From a virus: DNA of 39,366 nucleotides. The notes under the pieces are model-generated. The model saw nothing but the letters and a program-made list of their open reading frames with translations, ran no database searches and was not told where the DNA came from. Made by a program: the position numbers and the translations under genes. Within the stretch, counting starts at the first letter, position 1. Each line of letters opens with the position of its first letter. Positions 14,861 to 22,402 of the stretch are shown one piece after another. Where the stretch lies: positions 1 through 39,366 of IMG/VR virus record IMGVR_UViG_3300046387_000284. One strand, 5' to 3'.

Positions 14861-16477
14861 ATGGCAACAGGCTCACAGAAGGTAAAAACACCCACAGGTT
14901 GGAATTCAACGCAAGGGGCATGGGTAAAAACAGGAACATCAACTTGGAAGGCAGTCGACCAAATCTATGTGAAGACGCCTACTGGTTGGAATAATGCTTC
15001 TGGTCAAGAATCGGTTCAACAACCGTATCCTTACATCGCAAACGCCCAAGAGCCTAATATTAGAGATGCTCAACAACCTTATCCTTATATTGCAAATGCC
15101 CAAGAACCTAATATCAGAGATGCTCAGCAACCTTATCCTTATATTGCGAATGCACAAAATCCATTTATTAGAAACGCTCAACAACCTGCGATATATCAGA
15201 ATCCTGTAAATGCTCAAGAACCTAATATTAGAAGCGCTCAAGAACCGAACATAAGGTCAGCACAAGAACCTAATATTAGAAACGCTCAAACACCGTTTAC
15301 ATATCAACACAGGTCACCTTTTACATATAGAGACCCAAGGGCATATAGAAACCCATTTACATATCAACATAGGTCTCCGTTTACATACAGAAACCCTGTA
15401 GATTATAGAGTGCCTTCGACTTATAATCATAGGTCTCCATCTACATATAGAGACCCAAGGTCATATAGGGTTCCGTTTACATATCAACATAGGTCTCCGT
15501 TTACATATAGAGACCCAAGGTCATATAGAGTGCCATTCACTTATAGTCACAGGTCTCCGTTTACATACCGAAACCCTGTTGGTTATAATATGCCGTTTAC
15601 TTACAATCACAGGTCGCCTTTCACTTATCAGTCTAGACAACCGAATAATGCAAGACAACCAGTTGCATACAGGTCACCATTTACATACAGAAACCCTGTA
15701 TCAGCACAACAACCAGTTGCATTTAGGTCGCCGTTTACATACAGTGCTAGATATCCTGCAAACGCTCAACAACCTGTGACATTCCAATCACCGTTTACAT
15801 ATAGTGCTAGATATCCTGCAAACGCTCAGCAACCGAACAGTGCAAGACAACCTATCACATATCAGGCAAGACAACCCATATATTTACCACCCCCTCCAGG
15901 AGGCGGCGGTTTCGGTTGTTTCCCTGCTGGTTCAATGGTCTGGTTGGCAGATGGTTCACATGTTGCTATCGAAACTATCGAAGTTGGGCAAAATGTTTGG
16001 ACTTGGAACGAAGAACTCAATACATTGGAAATCAATGCTGTCGAATACTGTATGAAACCAAGAGTTATTTCAGTATGGGATATTCACTTGTCAGATGGTA
16101 GAGTATTACAAACATCAGATGACCACCCAATTAAAATTGCAGGTGTCGAAGGTTGGGGTGCTTTAAATCCTGAATTAACTGTAGAAAGACACGAATGGTT
16201 GTCGAATGATATGACACATACATTAGAAGTAGGAACTAGAATATTCACTATGACTGATGCAGTTCTATACGGTAAAGAATCAGAAGAAGTAGTAATAGAA
16301 AAAATAGAAGAAAATGATGAAATGGTAGTGTATAACTTATCAGCGATTGCTAATACAGGTACATTCTTTGTGAACGGAGTTTTAGTGCATAACTACTATA
16401 ACCCAATATATTCACAGTATGAGTTTAACCAAAACAAAGACCCACTAGACCCTGGTTTTGGGTTTCTACCGAAATAG
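14861..16477 (+). CDS. Pro/Tyr-rich repeat protein C with C-terminal Hint domain
   Basis: The N-terminus (1-50) has two copies of VKTPTGWN. Residues about 55-345 are repeats: first an 18-residue unit with NAQEPNIRDAQQPYPYIA, then a 20-residue unit of three subunits (8+6+6, such as QHRSPFTY, RDPRSY, RVPFTY). A PPPP-GGGG linker leads to a Hint (hedgehog/intein) domain at about 353-511. Cys353 begins CFPAGSMVWLADGS, SDDH with His422 is the block-B site, and the domain ends GTFFVNGVLVHN with His510-Asn511. The next residue is Tyr512, not Cys, Ser or Thr, so cleavage is more likely than splicing. The 27-residue tail contains PLDPGFGF, echoing PLDP in repeat protein A. It is probably a self-processing fibre protein (inferred). 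Confidence 0.82.
   Translation: MATGSQKVKTPTGWNSTQGAWVKTGTSTWKAVDQIYVKTPTGWNNASGQESVQQPYPYIANAQEPNIRDAQQPYPYIANAQEPNIRDAQQPYPYIANAQNPFIRNAQQPAIYQNPVNAQEPNIRSAQEPNIRSAQEPNIRNAQTPFTYQHRSPFTYRDPRAYRNPFTYQHRSPFTYRNPVDYRVPSTYNHRSPSTYRDPRSYRVPFTYQHRSPFTYRDPRSYRVPFTYSHRSPFTYRNPVGYNMPFTYNHRSPFTYQSRQPNNARQPVAYRSPFTYRNPVSAQQPVAFRSPFTYSARYPANAQQPVTFQSPFTYSARYPANAQQPNSARQPITYQARQPIYLPPPPGGGGFGCFPAGSMVWLADGSHVAIETIEVGQNVWTWNEELNTLEINAVEYCMKPRVISVWDIHLSDGRVLQTSDDHPIKIAGVEGWGALNPELTVERHEWLSNDMTHTLEVGTRIFTMTDAVLYGKESEEVVIEKIEENDEMVVYNLSAIANTGTFFVNGVLVHNYYNPIYSQYEFNQNKDPLDPGFGFLPK
15017..15178 (+). repeat. 54-bp in-frame tandem repeat in repeat protein C
   Basis: Units begin at 15017, 15071 and 15125 (CAACAACC(G/T)TATCC and CAGCAACCTTATCC), giving an 18-residue period. 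Differences are mostly synonymous and the last unit is diverged. Confidence 0.8.
15301..15624 (+). repeat. 60-bp in-frame tandem repeat in repeat protein C
   Basis: Five consecutive units start at 15301, 15361, 15421, 15481 and 15541, with a partial sixth at 15601. Each encodes a 20-residue unit of the form (Y)QHRSPFTY-RDPRSY-RVPFT. Nucleotide identity between units is high, for example a shared ATAGAGACCCAAGG. Confidence 0.88.
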
Positions 16478-16494: not shown

Positions 16495-17427
16495 ATGTCA
16501 AATATACAATCACCCTACATTGCAGTTGGTCAAAACCCATTTACATTTAGGGCACCATTCACATATAGAGTTCCTTACATTGCTAACGCAAGACAACCTG
16601 TAGCATACAGGTCACCGTTTACATATAGAGTTCCTTATATCGCTAATGCTCAGCAACCGAATACATACAGGTCACCTTTCACTTACAGAAACCCTGTAAG
16701 TGCTCAACAACCTGTGACATTTCAATCACCGTTTACATTCCAATCACCTTATATTGCGAATGGTCAAGAACCTAATATTAGAAGCGCACAAACTCCAAGA
16801 GGATATCGTGTGCCTGTTTCTGCTCAAGAACCGAATATCAGGTCAGCACAACAACCTGCTGGTTACAGATTACCTGTTAACGCTCAAGAACCGAATATCA
16901 GGTCAGCACAACAACCTGCTGGTTACAGATTACCTGTTAATGCTCAAGAACCTAATATTAGAAACAGACAAACACCTGCAAAATATCAGAATCCTGTAAA
17001 TGCTCAAGAACCTAATATTAGAAACGCACAACAGCCCGCTGGTTATCAGCATCCTGTAAATGCTCAACAACCTAATATTAGAGATGCAAGGCAACCATCG
17101 ACTTATCAACATAGGTCTCCGTTTACTTACAATCATAGGTCACCGTTTACATATCAACACAGGTCTCCGTTTACATATAGGGACCCTGTAAGTTATAGAG
17201 TTCCATTTACATATCAACATAGAAGTCCATCGACATATGCAACACAAGGTCAGACACCGTTTACATATCAACACAGGTCTCCTTTCACATATGCAAGACA
17301 AGGTCAAACACCGTTTACCTATCAACATAGAAGTCCGTTTACATATGCAACACAAGGAAGAACACCAGTAATCCGTTGGGATGGTGATTTGAATCAAAAT
17401 TGGCCAGGTACTCCAGTGTCGTCATAA
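16495..17427 (+). CDS. Pro/Tyr/Gln-rich repeat protein D
   Basis: This 310-residue protein is made almost entirely of repeats: RAPFTYRVPYIANARQPVAY near the start, then 20-residue units GYRLPVNAQEPNIRSAQQPA, then QHRSPFTY units and 18-residue units YATQGQTPFTYQHRSPFT. There is no Hint domain; it ends GDLNQNWPGTPVSS. The repeats are nearly free of Lys, Asp, Cys, Trp and Met and are rich in Arg, Gln, Tyr, Pro and Asn. An AGGAG lies about 17 bases upstream of the ATG, and a short ATG-TAA frame lies between them. It follows the Hint-containing repeat protein by 17 bases and is probably co-transcribed. It is a likely partner fibre or a substrate-like extended protein; no known family is recognised. 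Confidence 0.75.
   Translation: MSNIQSPYIAVGQNPFTFRAPFTYRVPYIANARQPVAYRSPFTYRVPYIANAQQPNTYRSPFTYRNPVSAQQPVTFQSPFTFQSPYIANGQEPNIRSAQTPRGYRVPVSAQEPNIRSAQQPAGYRLPVNAQEPNIRSAQQPAGYRLPVNAQEPNIRNRQTPAKYQNPVNAQEPNIRNAQQPAGYQHPVNAQQPNIRDARQPSTYQHRSPFTYNHRSPFTYQHRSPFTYRDPVSYRVPFTYQHRSPSTYATQGQTPFTYQHRSPFTYARQGQTPFTYQHRSPFTYATQGRTPVIRWDGDLNQNWPGTPVSS
16801..17100 (+). repeat. 60-bp in-frame tandem repeat in repeat protein D
   Basis: Five exact-length units start at 16801, 16861, 16921, 16981 and 17041. The first two share their last 41 bases without change, suggesting recent duplication or gene conversion. Confidence 0.88.
17236..17370 (+). repeat. 54-bp in-frame tandem repeat in repeat protein D
   Basis: Units begin at 17236, 17290 and 17344 (TATGCAA(C/G)ACAAGG) with an 18-residue period; the third is partial. 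Confidence 0.8.
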
Positions 17428-17457: not shown

Positions 17458-19041
17458 ATGCAACAGATAGACCACGATATTATTCTAAAACTTTTTAGCG
17501 AAGACAGAGAAGACTGGAAAGAAAAACATTTCTATAAACACATCGGTTCGATGAATCTTAGTGAAGATTGGGAGCAATCTACAACATGGAAAAATGTTTC
17601 ATGGTTGTATGAAAACAGATTACCCAAACTCAAAAAGGTGACATGGGGTGATGTTTCAAAACTTCAAAAAGAAGGCAAACTCATAGGTTGGAATCAACTA
17701 CAATCTCAAGCATTCGGTTATCATTATTTTCTACCCCTAGGTTGGACTGCTAAACCTGAATTTCCAGCACCTGGTAAATCGGGTATGGATTTCATAAACA
17801 TCAATGGCGAATATGAAAATATTTGTAATCATGTAAAATTTGATGATGTAGATTATGAACCTGATGAAGGTAAAAAAGGCAATTTAGATTCAGTATACTA
17901 TCATGATGCTAAAGCACATTGGTTAGTAGATAGTATTAGAAGAGATGGTCTTTGGAATCCTATTCAAGGTGTTGTAGCACCAGCACATGATGATAAGTAT
18001 AAACTATCAATACACCCAGGTTCTGTAAGGTCACCTGTATTCGAATGTCTCGATGATGAATCTTTACAAATGTGGATATGGGACGATTATAATTTATTTG
18101 ATTGGATACCTGAATATACTTTACATACATTACTATCTGATTTATCTAATCACCCAAAAATGGGTCAAAGAGATATGGGTAAAAAGAATGTCTCTTTTGG
18201 TTATACTCATGGTTATATGGAGATATCTACTGAACTACAACAATTAACTTTTAGAAGTGATGTCTATGAATTCAATGAAAGAATCGCAAAAATGGCACAA
18301 GGTAAAAGAATAAACATCTACATTGGTTATGATTCTCGTCACAAAGAAATTGCAGAACTGAACGCATGGACAATGTTGAAAACTATTCAACAAGGTTTCG
18401 GTGGCGGTGATGTTCACGGCACAATGAAACATTGGATACCTGAAATCAAATTCTTAGATGTATCAAAGATACCAGAATATACTAGAGAGTATGCCCAACA
18501 ATCAACAGAGTTTACATACAGTCGTTTCTTAATACCACACCTAGAAAACTACAAAGGGTTTAGTATTTTCTTAGATGATGATATACTTTTTACCAAGAGT
18601 ATACTACCAATGTTCTATTTCTTAAATCCAGACGATGCAGTTGCATGTATAAAATATGACTTTGAAAAACATAACGATACAAAATTTGATGGCGAAAAGA
18701 ATGTAAACTATCCCAAAAAGTTATGGTCTTCGTTGATGATATTCAATAATGGTCATGAAGATTGTAAAAGATTAACACCAGATGTAGTTAATACACAAAC
18801 AGGAAAGTATCTACATCAATTTGAATGGACAGATAAAATATCTGATATTCCTCAACACTATATATTTACAGAAGGATATGATACAGACGAATCAAGTTGG
18901 CGTCCATCTGCTATACATTATACAAGAGGCGGTCCATGGATTGATAACATGGACACAACTAACATTGACAAACTTGACGAGTACGAAAGATTGTATAATA
19001 AGTGGTTGAATTACAAAAAACAAAATGATATAATGGAGTGA
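17458..19041 (+). CDS. ParB-like / GT-A glycosyltransferase fusion
   Basis: This 527-residue protein has two parts. The C-terminal half (from about 283) is a GT-A glycosyltransferase, likely GT8-like: INIYIGYDSRHKEIAELNAW, STEFTYSRFLIPHL, the metal/sugar-nucleotide motif Asp373-Asp374-Asp375 in FSIFLDDDILF, PKKLWSSLMIFNNGH and AIHYTRGGPWIDN. From memory, stand-alone versions of this pattern occur in marine bacteria. The N-terminal half has DSIRRDGLWNPIQGVV and KLSIHPGSVRS (about 182-192), reminiscent of ParB-like domains (SIRxxGLxxPI, then G.R.), as I recall from related phage proteins. It is the first gene of a late operon with oxygenase and sulfotransferase-like genes. Acceptor unknown: virion protein or host surface glycan. 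The GT assignment is firm; the ParB-like one is tentative. Confidence 0.82.
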   Translation: MQQIDHDIILKLFSEDREDWKEKHFYKHIGSMNLSEDWEQSTTWKNVSWLYENRLPKLKKVTWGDVSKLQKEGKLIGWNQLQSQAFGYHYFLPLGWTAKPEFPAPGKSGMDFININGEYENICNHVKFDDVDYEPDEGKKGNLDSVYYHDAKAHWLVDSIRRDGLWNPIQGVVAPAHDDKYKLSIHPGSVRSPVFECLDDESLQMWIWDDYNLFDWIPEYTLHTLLSDLSNHPKMGQRDMGKKNVSFGYTHGYMEISTELQQLTFRSDVYEFNERIAKMAQGKRINIYIGYDSRHKEIAELNAWTMLKTIQQGFGGGDVHGTMKHWIPEIKFLDVSKIPEYTREYAQQSTEFTYSRFLIPHLENYKGFSIFLDDDILFTKSILPMFYFLNPDDAVACIKYDFEKHNDTKFDGEKNVNYPKKLWSSLMIFNNGHEDCKRLTPDVVNTQTGKYLHQFEWTDKISDIPQHYIFTEGYDTDESSWRPSAIHYTRGGPWIDNMDTTNIDKLDEYERLYNKWLNYKKQNDIME

Positions 19042-19043
19042 TT

Positions 19044-19595
19044 ATGAATATGTTAATTTATTGTGAGAACGGAAATCTCACTATCAGAAAACCAAACGGA
19101 CTACAATACACATTTGAGAATACAGATAAACCTGAATTAGGGTTTCATTATGATGTATTAATCTATGATGATATTGAATGTAAGATTTTAGAATGGGAAG
19201 ATAACAAACCTTTCGAAGAACAACAACAAATTGCTTTGAATGAACAAGAAATTGATGCTGTTGAATCGTATATTGAAAACTCAGTTCCACCTGATAATAT
19301 AAGTCTTAACGGTCAATACAGTGAAGACTTGAACAATCAAACGAAGCAGTATATAATAGAAATGTGTAATTCATATGGATTCGCACATGAAGTCGAAGTT
19401 CTAATGGCAGGTCGTGAAGGTTCAAATCACCCTTACAGGTCAGATGCAAGAAGAGTTATGGAATATATCGATGCTGTCTGGAATGTATATGTTAATGTGA
19501 TGAACGAAATAAGACAAACAAGAGAAGATACTTTAAAATCTTTTGAAGAATATAGTTCACAAATACCTGTACCTAGAAAAGCACAAACAAACTAA
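19044..19595 (+). CDS. Unknown protein in modification operon
   Basis: This ~183-residue protein starts at the ATG at 19044, six bases after GGAG (19035-19038). A GTG at 19038 in the same frame overlaps the previous stop and is less likely. The N-terminal third is beta-like (LIYCENGNLTIRKPNGLQYT), with an acidic middle. The C-terminal part has HPYRSDARRVMEYIDAVWNV followed by a helical tail ending QIPVPRKAQTN. I have a weak memory of DARR..EY.DAVW helices in other marine phage proteins near tail genes, but cannot name a family. Its stop immediately precedes the next ATG. It may be a partner of the flanking enzymes or a fibre-assembly factor; function unknown. Confidence 0.65.
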   Translation: MNMLIYCENGNLTIRKPNGLQYTFENTDKPELGFHYDVLIYDDIECKILEWEDNKPFEEQQQIALNEQEIDAVESYIENSVPPDNISLNGQYSEDLNNQTKQYIIEMCNSYGFAHEVEVLMAGREGSNHPYRSDARRVMEYIDAVWNVYVNVMNEIRQTREDTLKSFEEYSSQIPVPRKAQTN

Positions 19596-20840
19596 ATGAG
19601 AATTCTTGTAATTGCTACCATTAGGTGTGGTGGAACTTATTTCGCCGAGTCGATTGCAAACAATCACAATTTAGATTACATACATGAACCTAAGTATAAT
19701 AACTTAGGTGCAACAAATAAAAATAATGTTGTTGTTAAAATTTTAACACATGCACCATTTACAGACATAAAAGAGATTGTCAAATACTCTAAAAACTTTG
19801 ATAGAGTTTATGTATTAGATAGAAAGGATAAAGAAGAACAATTAAGGTCTGTTTATTCTCTCTATGAATATCCAAAAGAATCTGCTCATAGTAGTTATCA
19901 ATGGGATGATTCTATGTTCGAAAAAGAGAATCCTAAAGATACAAAAGAAGAGTATGAATCATGGATAAATAAGTTTACTAAACAAGTAAATACAATTTCT
20001 TCTATCTTAAATAAAGATATTCTATATTATGAAGACTTGTATTACGGTAAAGTTGATTTAAAAGATATAAAGTTTATGCCAGATACATCTGAAAGATTAA
20101 GAAAAGAACCTATAAAGATAGAACATAGAGATAGTCCTTTCAATGTAAAAGAATTACCTTTAGATAGAGTTTATGTATTCGATAATTACTTAGAAAATTC
20201 TCTTTGGAAATTTATAGATAAACAATTAACTCAATCATCCACATGGGCAAAAACAAATCAAGTAAACTCACAACATAAAACAGGTTTACCTCACCATAGT
20301 TTTTGGGGAACATCTATTCTAAGAGCAGATGAACATGGTAATGGATACTTAGATTATGATGCAGGTTGGACTGAATCATCAGGCGCATTGTTTAGATGGT
20401 TCAATAGAAGAGTATGCACCGACTTTGGGTTCAAATGGAAAAGATTTCAGTATATGGGTACGAATAGTCAAACCCAAGGTCTAGAAGGCACAACTCATGC
20501 AGATTGCCAAAAAGATGATGAATGGAATTTATCATTTCTATATTATTACAATAGTTATTGGAATGAAGAATGGGGTGGTGATTTAAGATTTTATGATGAT
20601 GTTCCACAACATGGTCGTATGGGTCGTGAAGAACATATAAAGAATCATCAAATCGGAAGTGTTGAGTTTGTTCCGAATAGACTTATAATGTTTGACGGTA
20701 GAATACCCCATGGTGCAGATGCCCCTAATAGTAAAGCAAGATATATGGACAGAAGGTCTATTGTATTGAGAGGAGACGAAGTTCAACTAGTAGACGAGGA
20801 GGAAATGTTTAATGCCAACGATAGATTTTACAACATTTAA
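19596..20840 (+). CDS. Sulfotransferase-like / 2OG-Fe(II) oxygenase fusion
   Basis: This 414-residue protein has an N-terminal domain (1-~165) resembling PAPS-dependent sulfotransferases. It has a phosphosulfate-binding-like loop ATIRCGGTYFAESIA (about 7-21), followed by HEP and by VYVLDRKDKEEQLRSVYSLY, the expected 3'-phosphate-binding region. The C-terminal domain (~190-400) is a 2-oxoglutarate/Fe(II) dioxygenase: His301-x-Asp303 in THADCQKDD, distal His372 in GRIPHGADAP, and Arg386/Arg387 as candidate 2OG-binding residue. WGGDLRFYDD fits the prolyl-hydroxylase-like subfamily. There is no Shine-Dalgarno sequence; the ATG abuts the previous stop. The substrate could be virion proteins or host surface. 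The oxygenase call is strong; sulfotransferase is moderate. Confidence 0.8.
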   Translation: MRILVIATIRCGGTYFAESIANNHNLDYIHEPKYNNLGATNKNNVVVKILTHAPFTDIKEIVKYSKNFDRVYVLDRKDKEEQLRSVYSLYEYPKESAHSSYQWDDSMFEKENPKDTKEEYESWINKFTKQVNTISSILNKDILYYEDLYYGKVDLKDIKFMPDTSERLRKEPIKIEHRDSPFNVKELPLDRVYVFDNYLENSLWKFIDKQLTQSSTWAKTNQVNSQHKTGLPHHSFWGTSILRADEHGNGYLDYDAGWTESSGALFRWFNRRVCTDFGFKWKRFQYMGTNSQTQGLEGTTHADCQKDDEWNLSFLYYYNSYWNEEWGGDLRFYDDVPQHGRMGREEHIKNHQIGSVEFVPNRLIMFDGRIPHGADAPNSKARYMDRRSIVLRGDEVQLVDEEEMFNANDRFYNI

Positions 20841-21732
20841 TGAAGACTCGTTAAGAGATTTCAAACCTGTTTTAGCAAAGACATATGCACCTGATTGGTG
20901 GAAATCAGCAAAGGTTTGGAACACTGTTAGAGGTCGTCACATACAAACAATTCGTGCCTGCCCAGCTATGGACGATTGGTTGAAGTCTGGTTGGTATATA
21001 CTTGCAAATAGAGATATGGAAGTATGTTTTGGTTCAGATAAAGAAGATAAGAATAGTAAGATATCTTTTACACAGGACCCCGAATGGGATTATCAAAAAA
21101 GAAGAAGAAAAGGTCTACCAGAAGAAGGTGAAGGTCCACATGCAGCTGGTTTTCCTGTATATCATTCACCATCTCACCCATCAGAACAATTCTATCATTC
21201 ATTTCAATACTTACCTGATTCTGAATCACCTGTAAGAGATGCATTCAAAATGAGAAGTGCCTGGAATATCAAAACGCCACCAGGTTATTCAACCTTATAT
21301 CTCGACCCATTTTTATTTCAGAACGAACACTTTGCAGTATGGCAAGGTATCATAGATACAGATACTTTTCAAACAAACTATGATAACTCTCAAATCATTC
21401 TTTACCCAAGACATAGTAAAGATTTTATAATTAAAAAAGGAACACCTTTAGTTCAGATTATACCTTATAAAAGAGAAAATTGGGTCGCATCATATCAATG
21501 CATGACAGAAGAAAGTTGGCAGACTAGTCGTAGTCACCTTACAAACGAACATGGATATTCAACAATGGACGAATGGGGTAGAACAAAATATGACATGTCA
21601 ACGGAAAGAGCAAACCCAACATTAGGTCCATATAGAAACGAAGGTTATTGGCAAGAAAAGGGTAAGATGTTTAAAGAAGATGGACCGCCACCTGAATGTC
21701 CATTTCACAAAGGGGAAGATGATGACAGTTAA
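20812..21732 (+). CDS. Conserved phage protein, DUF6065-like
   Basis: This 306-residue protein begins 29 bases inside the upstream gene, with a strong GAGGAGG (20796-20802) nine bases before the ATG, so the overlap is real. Features are YAPDWWKSAKVWN, IRACPAMDDWLKSGWYI, TPPGYSTLYLDPFLFQN and IKKGTPLVQIIPYKRENW, and an acidic C-terminus PPPECPFHKGEDDDS. This pattern (drug-like 'CPAM.DWL.SG', 'KGTPL.QIIPY.RE') matches my memory of DUF6065 proteins, found in phages and some bacteria beside 2OG oxygenases. No catalytic motif is visible. The product is likely soluble. Operon position suggests a role with the neighbouring modifying enzymes; the function is not known. Confidence 0.68.
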   Translation: MPTIDFTTFNEDSLRDFKPVLAKTYAPDWWKSAKVWNTVRGRHIQTIRACPAMDDWLKSGWYILANRDMEVCFGSDKEDKNSKISFTQDPEWDYQKRRRKGLPEEGEGPHAAGFPVYHSPSHPSEQFYHSFQYLPDSESPVRDAFKMRSAWNIKTPPGYSTLYLDPFLFQNEHFAVWQGIIDTDTFQTNYDNSQIILYPRHSKDFIIKKGTPLVQIIPYKRENWVASYQCMTEESWQTSRSHLTNEHGYSTMDEWGRTKYDMSTERANPTLGPYRNEGYWQEKGKMFKEDGPPPECPFHKGEDDDS

Positions 21733-22402
21733 AAAATTATTTCCAACATATGTCTTCGAATGGGATTTTCTAGGAGAAGATAGCAACGAATTGATGACAC
21801 CTGAATATTTTGGATTACTTAGAGAAGAAATGGACGCTATGAGAAGAAGAGACCCTGTAGGTCGTAATGTGTCAAATGCTTATACAGGTTGGCAATCAAA
21901 CGATAGAGTTGATGATAATCCTATCTTTCAAAAATGTATTAGACAAATTAAGAAAAAGGTCAGAGAAGAGATTGCCCCAACATTGGGTATGAAGAATACA
22001 ACAGTCAATTTTCATAATGCTTGGGCGAACATTAATGATAATATGGCATGGAACAAACCACATTTACATAATGGATGTATGTATTCAGGTGCTTTCTACA
22101 TACACAGCGATGGTGATGAAGGTCATTTTGTAGCAGTAGATACTGATTATAAGTTTGTCGGAAATGTTCCTAGAAGTCAATCTGCTGTAAGAGAATCTTA
22201 TAGTGTTGAACCCAAAACAGGTTTTTTAATAATGTTTCCGAGTGGTCTAATGCATATGGTCGAACCAAATCCTACTCAGAAAGATAGATATAGTATTTCT
22301 TTCAATTTAGACTTCGATGGCGATAGAAATGAAGAGAATCATAACTACAGTTTATCATATAAAATCAAAGACGAATACGGAAATCTTGCAATTAACGAGT
22401 AA
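21722..22402 (+). CDS. 2OG-Fe(II) oxygenase
   Basis: This ~226-residue protein starts at the ATG at 21722, with AGGGG six bases upstream and a short overlap with the previous gene. An earlier in-frame ATG at 21680 lies deep in the upstream gene and would add 14 unrelated residues. It opens KKLFPTYVFEWDF, then has FHNAWANINDN, KPHLHNGCMYSGAFYIHS (His114, His116), GFLIMFPSGLMHMVEPN (His178) and DRYSISFN (Arg189). This is the layout of the putative 2OG-Fe(II) oxygenase family (PF13759) common in marine T4-like phages. These enzymes hydroxylate proteins or small molecules; substrates in phages are unknown. It is the last gene of the modification operon. Confidence 0.88.
   Translation: MTVKKLFPTYVFEWDFLGEDSNELMTPEYFGLLREEMDAMRRRDPVGRNVSNAYTGWQSNDRVDDNPIFQKCIRQIKKKVREEIAPTLGMKNTTVNFHNAWANINDNMAWNKPHLHNGCMYSGAFYIHSDGDEGHFVAVDTDYKFVGNVPRSQSAVRESYSVEPKTGFLIMFPSGLMHMVEPNPTQKDRYSISFNLDFDGDRNEENHNYSLSYKIKDEYGNLAINE

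Follow-up and report, generated by a model that had tools for sequence, protein, structure and literature searches.

A single open reading frame at positions 19596-20840 of a T4-like phage fuses an N-terminal sulfotransferase-like P-loop domain to a C-terminal 2OG-Fe(II) oxygenase, and this gene belongs to a conserved module of marine T4-like phages. The window, i.e. the whole stretch of DNA that was analyzed (39,366 nucleotides; IMG/VR record IMGVR_UViG_3300046387_000284), is a T4-like phage fragment with neck, sheath stabilizer and terminase genes downstream. Among the matches listed, Phage C48C1 (Kyanoviridae) has the closest named terminase, at 56% identity, and Synechococcus phages come next. 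The fusion frame encodes 414 amino acids from an ATG start and has zero internal stops; this and all other window features described below lie on the plus strand. The sulfotransferase-like domain comprises residues 1-173 (19596..20114), as defined from an AF2 model, Foldseek, VIA and the standalone homologues in contigs L031 and L048, while the oxygenase domain covers residues 180-414 (20133..20837). Our preferred reading, which we hold tentatively and with a little less than even confidence, is that of a two-domain tailoring enzyme in a virion-gene cassette: the oxygenase would hydroxylate the repeat proteins of the cassette, a GT8-like enzyme would add sugar and the N-terminal domain would act as a minimal PAPS-dependent sulfotransferase.

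Its sequence identifies the C-terminal half as a 2OG-Fe(II) oxygenase, for which turnover of 2OG is predicted. It matches PF13640 (2OG-FeII_Oxy_3) in Pfam with 33.1 bits against a cut-off of 27 (E 1.2e-7). The original prediction had assigned a dioxygenase to His301, Asp303 and His372, and these iron ligands are indeed found there, as H301-x-D303 (20496..20504) and H372 (20709..20711), with the triad invariant in all 48 of the distinct relatives drawn from 81 loci. R386 (20751..20753), a candidate ligand of the 2-oxoglutarate carboxylate, is likewise invariant in 48/48. A full-length AF2 model from 11 sequences is poor over the oxygenase half (pLDDT 24-71 per ten-residue block from residue 181, mostly below 60); Foldseek with this poorly modelled full-length protein listed PtlH, SptF and PHD2 at low TM-scores. 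The window oxygenase shares with the PF13640 superfamily the Pfam match over the cut-off, the HxD...H triad, the conserved downstream arginine and remote cyanophage relatives, which were found in 62 records of named cyanophages at below 60% identity. What sets it apart from the superfamily is the fusion with an N-terminal domain that is unrelated to it.

Some of the cyanophage relatives carry the name 'DNA endonuclease V' (phrog_274; P-SSM2 denV). The proteins of this name from S-SSM4 and ACG-2014d and the denV product of P-SSM2 all match PF13640, the last of them with 27.3 bits against the cut-off of 27 (genes at L067 5710-6318, L068 5698-6306 and L066 3198-3767). Because these genes match a 2OG-Fe(II) oxygenase family, the label looks wrong, and a literal reading of phrog_274 as DNA endonuclease V was rejected for the members tested.

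A whole-protein scan of IMG/VR viral contigs yielded 28 loci. The full-length fusion was found in four other contigs, namely L001 and L004 (97% identity to the window copy) and L002 and L003 (75%), which brings the total to five contigs, window counted, in two lineages that are 75% identical. The concern that the fusion might be an assembly artefact, absent from close relatives, is ruled out by this search for the same architecture, since the joined protein recurs at full length in four further contigs of two lineages; the fusion is real. In L026, the first 63 residues are identical to the window copy and the contig then ends. The remaining 23 of the 28 loci show the oxygenase alone, with the contigs of L005 and L023 starting too near the gene to judge.

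The two domains are joined without a linker: the standalone homologues of the N-terminal domain end LRKK..EKKLV, and a PF pair conserved about 10 residues into the sister oxygenases corresponds to P181-F182 of the window protein. Near the junction, the in-frame start-type codons of the window are codon 161 (ATG) and next codon 265 (TTG). No ATG, GTG or TTG occurs between them, so the oxygenase half of the window protein lacks an independent start codon there; an ATG is present at codon 177 in L002 and L003. The protein is a fusion of known kinds of domain, and the combination itself is new to the literature searched, a limited open-access set in which no description of such a fusion was found.

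Sequence searches with the N-terminal 173 residues gave no Pfam family over its cut-off. No sulfotransferase family was found for this domain in Pfam, PHROGs or PDB sequences, with Pfam followed to E 10 for the window, L003, L031 and L048 copies. In particular, the Stf0 family PF09037 gave no Pfam match to the domain, PF13469 gave no match in the window, and PDB sequence searches with either a single sequence or a profile returned nothing meaningful. The unrelated family Smg4_UPF3 matched the L002 and L003 copies at 22.5 and 22.4 bits (E 1.3e-4 and 1.4e-4); being under the cut-off of 24 and absent from the window, L001, L031 and L048 copies, it was set aside.

Modelled alone with AF2, residues 1-171 reached a pLDDT of 79.9 and a pTM of 0.80, and the model predicts a P-loop domain of a fold common to kinases and sulfotransferases. 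The top Foldseek rows against the PDB were shared between shikimate kinases and tyrosylprotein sulfotransferases (TPST). Among the 50 matches listed, the highest query TM-score was 0.54 for a tick TPST; TPST1/2 spanned 0.50-0.54, and adenylate kinases also reached 0.50. By VIA-align, the P-loop proteins Rv1421 (Z 10.3; 135 residues, 3.3 A) and RapZ (Z 10.2; 138 residues, 3.4 A) and shikimate kinase (Z 10.1; 135 residues, 2.9 A) scored above TPST2 (Z 9.2; 148 of 171 residues, 3.2 A) and Stf0 (Z 9.1; 142 residues, 3.8 A). The matches in a viral structure library were kinases and unnamed phage proteins, mixed with some named sulfotransferases. As kinases score as well as TPST2 or slightly better, the fold alone does not decide the function. 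Structure prediction, which had been proposed as a check of the donor pocket, returned this P-loop kinase/sulfotransferase fold.

The top structural-alignment rows (Rv1421, RapZ and shikimate kinases, Z 10.3 to 10.0) would suit a P-loop kinase or other NTPase with no sulfotransferase activity, a reading that we consider very unlikely for three reasons. The Walker A motif GxxxxGK[ST] was absent, by eye, from every homologue of the domain aligned; a profile of shikimate kinases scored 15.6 against the domain, a value reached by 32 of 300 column shuffles; and the standalone homologues of contigs L031 and L048 each have a sulfotransferase gene two genes upstream. In the same profile comparison, the Stf0 score of 20.1 was reached by 1/300 shuffles and the phage PF03567 score of 18.4 by 15/300. 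The Stf0 alignment is limited to the 5' loop and the stretch that follows it (first 31 columns), and the comparison is weak, since its positive control, the phage PF03567 profile, scored only 15.0 against Stf0 and 14.1 against shikimate kinases. Use of hhalign with the domain and a single TPST2 sequence produced only a trivial six-column match, and global hhalign was uninformative.

Individual residues of the domain point toward sulfotransferases. Copies of the domain are invariant at R10, C11, G12, G13, E31, P32, K48, D75, R76, K79, E80, E81, Q82, L83 and the YYEDLYY strand, and four of these residues, R10, E31, K48 and R76, appear in sulfotransferase order. According to the alignments and the Stf0 profile, the R10-C-G-G13 loop (19623..19634), contained in ATIRCGGTYFAES (residues 7-19), lies where sulfotransferases have their 5'-phosphosulfate loop (RSGT/RSGS). 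The invariant E31 (19686..19688) is a candidate general base, placed 21 residues past R10 as E99 is past R78 in TPST2, and the invariant strand lysine K48 (19737..19739) is a candidate counterpart of TPST2 K158. The segment R76-x-D-K-x-x-Q-x-x-S85 (19821..19850), within VYVLDRKDKEEQLRSVYSLY (residues 71-90), has Stf0-type spacing and may represent a 3'-phosphate-binding motif. The 5'-phosphosulfate loop of sulfotransferases follows the pattern [KR]-S-G-[ST]-[ST], with RSGTT in TPST2 and RSGS in Stf0. Relative to this pattern, the domain keeps the arginine and the glycine, has cysteine in place of serine, and continues with glycine and then T, L or K. In the two stretches that the original prediction had fitted to PAPS-binding motifs, R10, G12 and R76 are kept, residue 14 varies among T, L and K, and residue 85 is Ser in the five fusion copies and Ala in the two standalone copies; the two donor-binding hydroxyl residues of the domain are unconserved. 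When both motifs were searched together, they occurred in 10 of 470 stretches, comprising seven copies of the domain and three of seven Stf0 proteins, with the motif written after both sets had been seen.

Two sulfotransferase families offer themselves for comparison. With Stf0 sulfotransferases (PDB 1tex) the domain shares the P-loop fold, the R-[SC]-G loop and the R-x-D-K-x-x-Q-x-x-S spacing; it differs in being about 80-90 residues shorter, in its unconserved loop Ser/Thr, and in lacking both a Pfam match and the C-terminal segment. With TPST1/2 it has in common the Arg-to-Glu spacing of 21, the invariant strand lysine and the highest query TM-scores among the 50 matches listed. In contrast, no sequence match to TPST1/2 is detectable, and most tyrosines of the putative repeat substrates lack acidic neighbors. 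The catalytic residues of TPST, as named in the published account, are R78, E99, K158 and S285 (PMC5562738). The last of these has no counterpart here because the domain, which is unusually short and has a very short region past YEDL, ends near residue 173. Altogether, the motifs favor a sulfotransferase over a kinase, and the domain may transfer sulfate. The sulfotransferase claim is plausible and tentatively favored: the P-loop fold, the Arg/Glu/Lys/Arg positions and the Stf0 profile (1/300) speak for it, but no sulfotransferase family matches and kinases score as well or slightly better in structure.

The domain could instead be a remnant of the sulfotransferase fold or a dead P-loop domain that binds a nucleotide, substrate or partner, leaving the oxygenase as the sole working enzyme. 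We judge this unlikely, although the unconserved loop hydroxyls and Ser85, the short C-terminus, the lack of the domain in 76 of 81 related loci and its rate of evolution are in its favor. In five of six comparisons, dN/dS was 0.28-0.42 in the sulfotransferase-like half versus 0.03-0.14 in the oxygenase half; the sixth, between the near-identical L002 and L003, gave 0.69 versus 0 from very few changes. Faster evolution of the N-terminal half is compatible with decay as well. On the other hand, R10, G12, G13, E31, K48, R76 and YYEDLYY are kept across sequences that are 48-67% identical, and values of 0.28-0.42, being below 1, indicate that this half is still under constraint.

Standalone homologues of the N-terminal domain, of 176 and 179 amino acids, occur in L031 and L048, in a different phage neighborhood. 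In both contigs (2/2), a PF03567 (Sulfotransfer_2) gene lies two genes upstream, and the resulting cassette consists of the PF03567 sulfotransferase, a SegE GIY-YIG endonuclease and the standalone homologue (L031 5002-6531, L048 3002-4540). This cassette is possibly mobile. The homologue is followed downstream by primase-like and SbcC-like AAA genes, which were tested in L048 and L031, respectively. The marine-phage Sulfotransfer_2 protein resembles the N-terminal domain in its small size (193 aa) and is encoded two genes upstream of the standalone homologues, but has the loop IPKTGGTS, is detected by Pfam and is encoded by a separate gene.

The GC content of the sulfotransferase-like part of the fusion gene is 27.7%, versus 32-37% in neighboring genes, and together with the faster evolution of this part it fits a recent capture, possibly aided by the homing endonuclease that neighbors the standalone gene. 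In this scenario, only one subclade would have acquired the domain, from a standalone phage gene, by an in-frame, linker-free fusion to the oxygenase start. No bacterial source of the domain was found in the genome-contig scan, and none among 295 genomes of one arbitrarily chosen class, a search that had no positive control. In named phages, the window copy had no match to E 10, L003 had five at E 7-8 and L031 one at E 0.3. Searches of four long, possibly incomplete sister records (146, 154, 151 and 140 kb) likewise gave no match to the domain. As sister phages have the oxygenase without it, the N-terminal domain is an optional and probably recent add-on.

The conserved module consists, in order, of P-x-x-Y repeat proteins, a GT8-like glycosyltransferase, a 185-aa protein, the oxygenase, a 306-aa protein and a second oxygenase. 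In the window, two repeat proteins are encoded at 14861..16477 and 16495..17427. They are followed by the GT8-like gene (17458..19041), which matches phrog_28018 of unknown function (E 1.3e-44) and, under the cut-off of 24.3, PF01501 (21.9 bits). The 185-aa protein (19038..19595) precedes the fusion, and the 306-aa protein (phrog_7084; 20812..21732) and the second 2OG-Fe(II) oxygenase (PF13759, E 1.4e-17; 21680..22402) come after it. We examined 81 module loci, namely the best 80 of 183 oxygenase relatives from an alignment-based scan and one contig of a Sphingobacteriales MAG. All 81 encode the second oxygenase and the 306-aa protein. The 65 loci with at least 2.9 kb upstream all have the GT8-like enzyme, the 185-aa protein and, judged by motif count, the repeat protein. 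In contrast to this constancy, the N-terminal domain was found in four loci (L001-L004) and was missing in 76, one locus (L088, on the same contig as L005) starting too near to judge. The oxygenase step therefore does not need sulfation, and the two-step modification of one target suggested by the original prediction is speculative. The Sphingobacteriales locus (L149) lies on a 121-kb contig that is probably a phage contig binned with a bacterium. Relatives of the 306-aa protein occur in haloarchaeal tailed viruses, which make up most of the 50 records with a match.

On account of this constant neighborhood, the repeat proteins are the best candidate substrate, although co-inheritance in one phage group is not proof. 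The spacings between prolines are even in 44 of 48 cases in one window repeat protein and in 40 of 42 in the other, values matched by none of 10000 shuffles, which suggests an extended two-residue register; PFTYQHRSPFTYRDP is an example of a repeat peptide. The usual TPST substrate is a tyrosine with acidic neighbors, and an acidic residue within four positions was found for 8/33 and 2/25 of the repeat tyrosines. The 14861-16477 protein has a Hint-like (hedgehog/intein) C-terminal domain with matches under the cut-off to PF01079 (E 1e-4) and PF14890 (E 1.5e-4); this domain starts CFPAGSMVWL and has VHN near its end. Judged by these features, the product is a possible self-processing fiber protein. 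Three cyanophage stretches of about 12 kb with remote oxygenase relatives (near gp17, or clamp-loader/dam) contained no repeat protein by annotation or motif count, so that this oxygenase family is not always accompanied by the repeats.

The GT8-like gene is placed between fiber-like genes and the neck gene. Pelagimyophages are described as having a host recognition cluster with glycosyltransferases between VrlC and the neck gene gp14; GT8 is the family most represented in these phages, and their glycosyltransferases are considered by the authors likely to modify the host O chain (PMC7029224). The window module has in common with this cluster its site before the neck gene and its content of fibers and glycosyltransferases. 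We also observed that Pelagibacter phage Mosig (L150 8013-10103) encodes a GT8-like enzyme related to the window glycosyltransferase, with a PF03567 gene two genes downstream, so that sugar-transfer and sulfate-transfer genes do co-locate in marine phages. From these parallels, the cassette including the fusion might alter host LPS during infection, for example to block other phages, and the sulfotransferase-like domain might sulfate sugars. We hold this to be improbable. The passage on the pelagimyophage cluster terms it nonsyntenic, while noting strong conservation of all modules for two phage groups compared (PMC7029224), whereas the content of the window module is constant in the loci examined (65/65 and 81/81). 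In addition, the module adjoins a repeat protein, and two oxygenases would be unexpected in O-chain synthesis. The constancy of the module argues for virion maturation rather than host LPS as the target.

In the preferred reading of a virion-tailoring cassette, the P-x-x-Y repeat proteins, whose genes lie just upstream, would be hydroxylated by the oxygenase, most likely at proline, and then glycosylated by the GT8-like enzyme. Less certainly, the N-terminal domain, as a minimal PAPS-dependent sulfotransferase, might sulfate the same virion proteins or the new hydroxyls or sugars. A more specific and rather unlikely version is an extensin-like fiber: two oxygenases would hydroxylate the P-x-x-Y repeats, the GT8-like enzyme would glycosylate them, and a sulfotransferase domain carried by the first oxygenase would sulfate them in a single subclade.

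Both 2OG oxygenases and sulfotransferases are encoded by marine phages, and their targets are mostly unknown; the text of a paper on OM43 phage calls the role of phage sulfotransferases unclear (PMC10580990). A conserved cassette in which a repeat protein adjoins a glycosyltransferase and two oxygenases supplies a concrete, testable substrate, and the fusion provides one purifiable protein for asking if hydroxylation is coupled to sulfation. The conserved module as a whole deserves no less attention than the fusion itself. If the extensin-like fiber were true, it would constitute a phage-encoded line of hydroxylation, glycosylation and sulfation for a virion protein.
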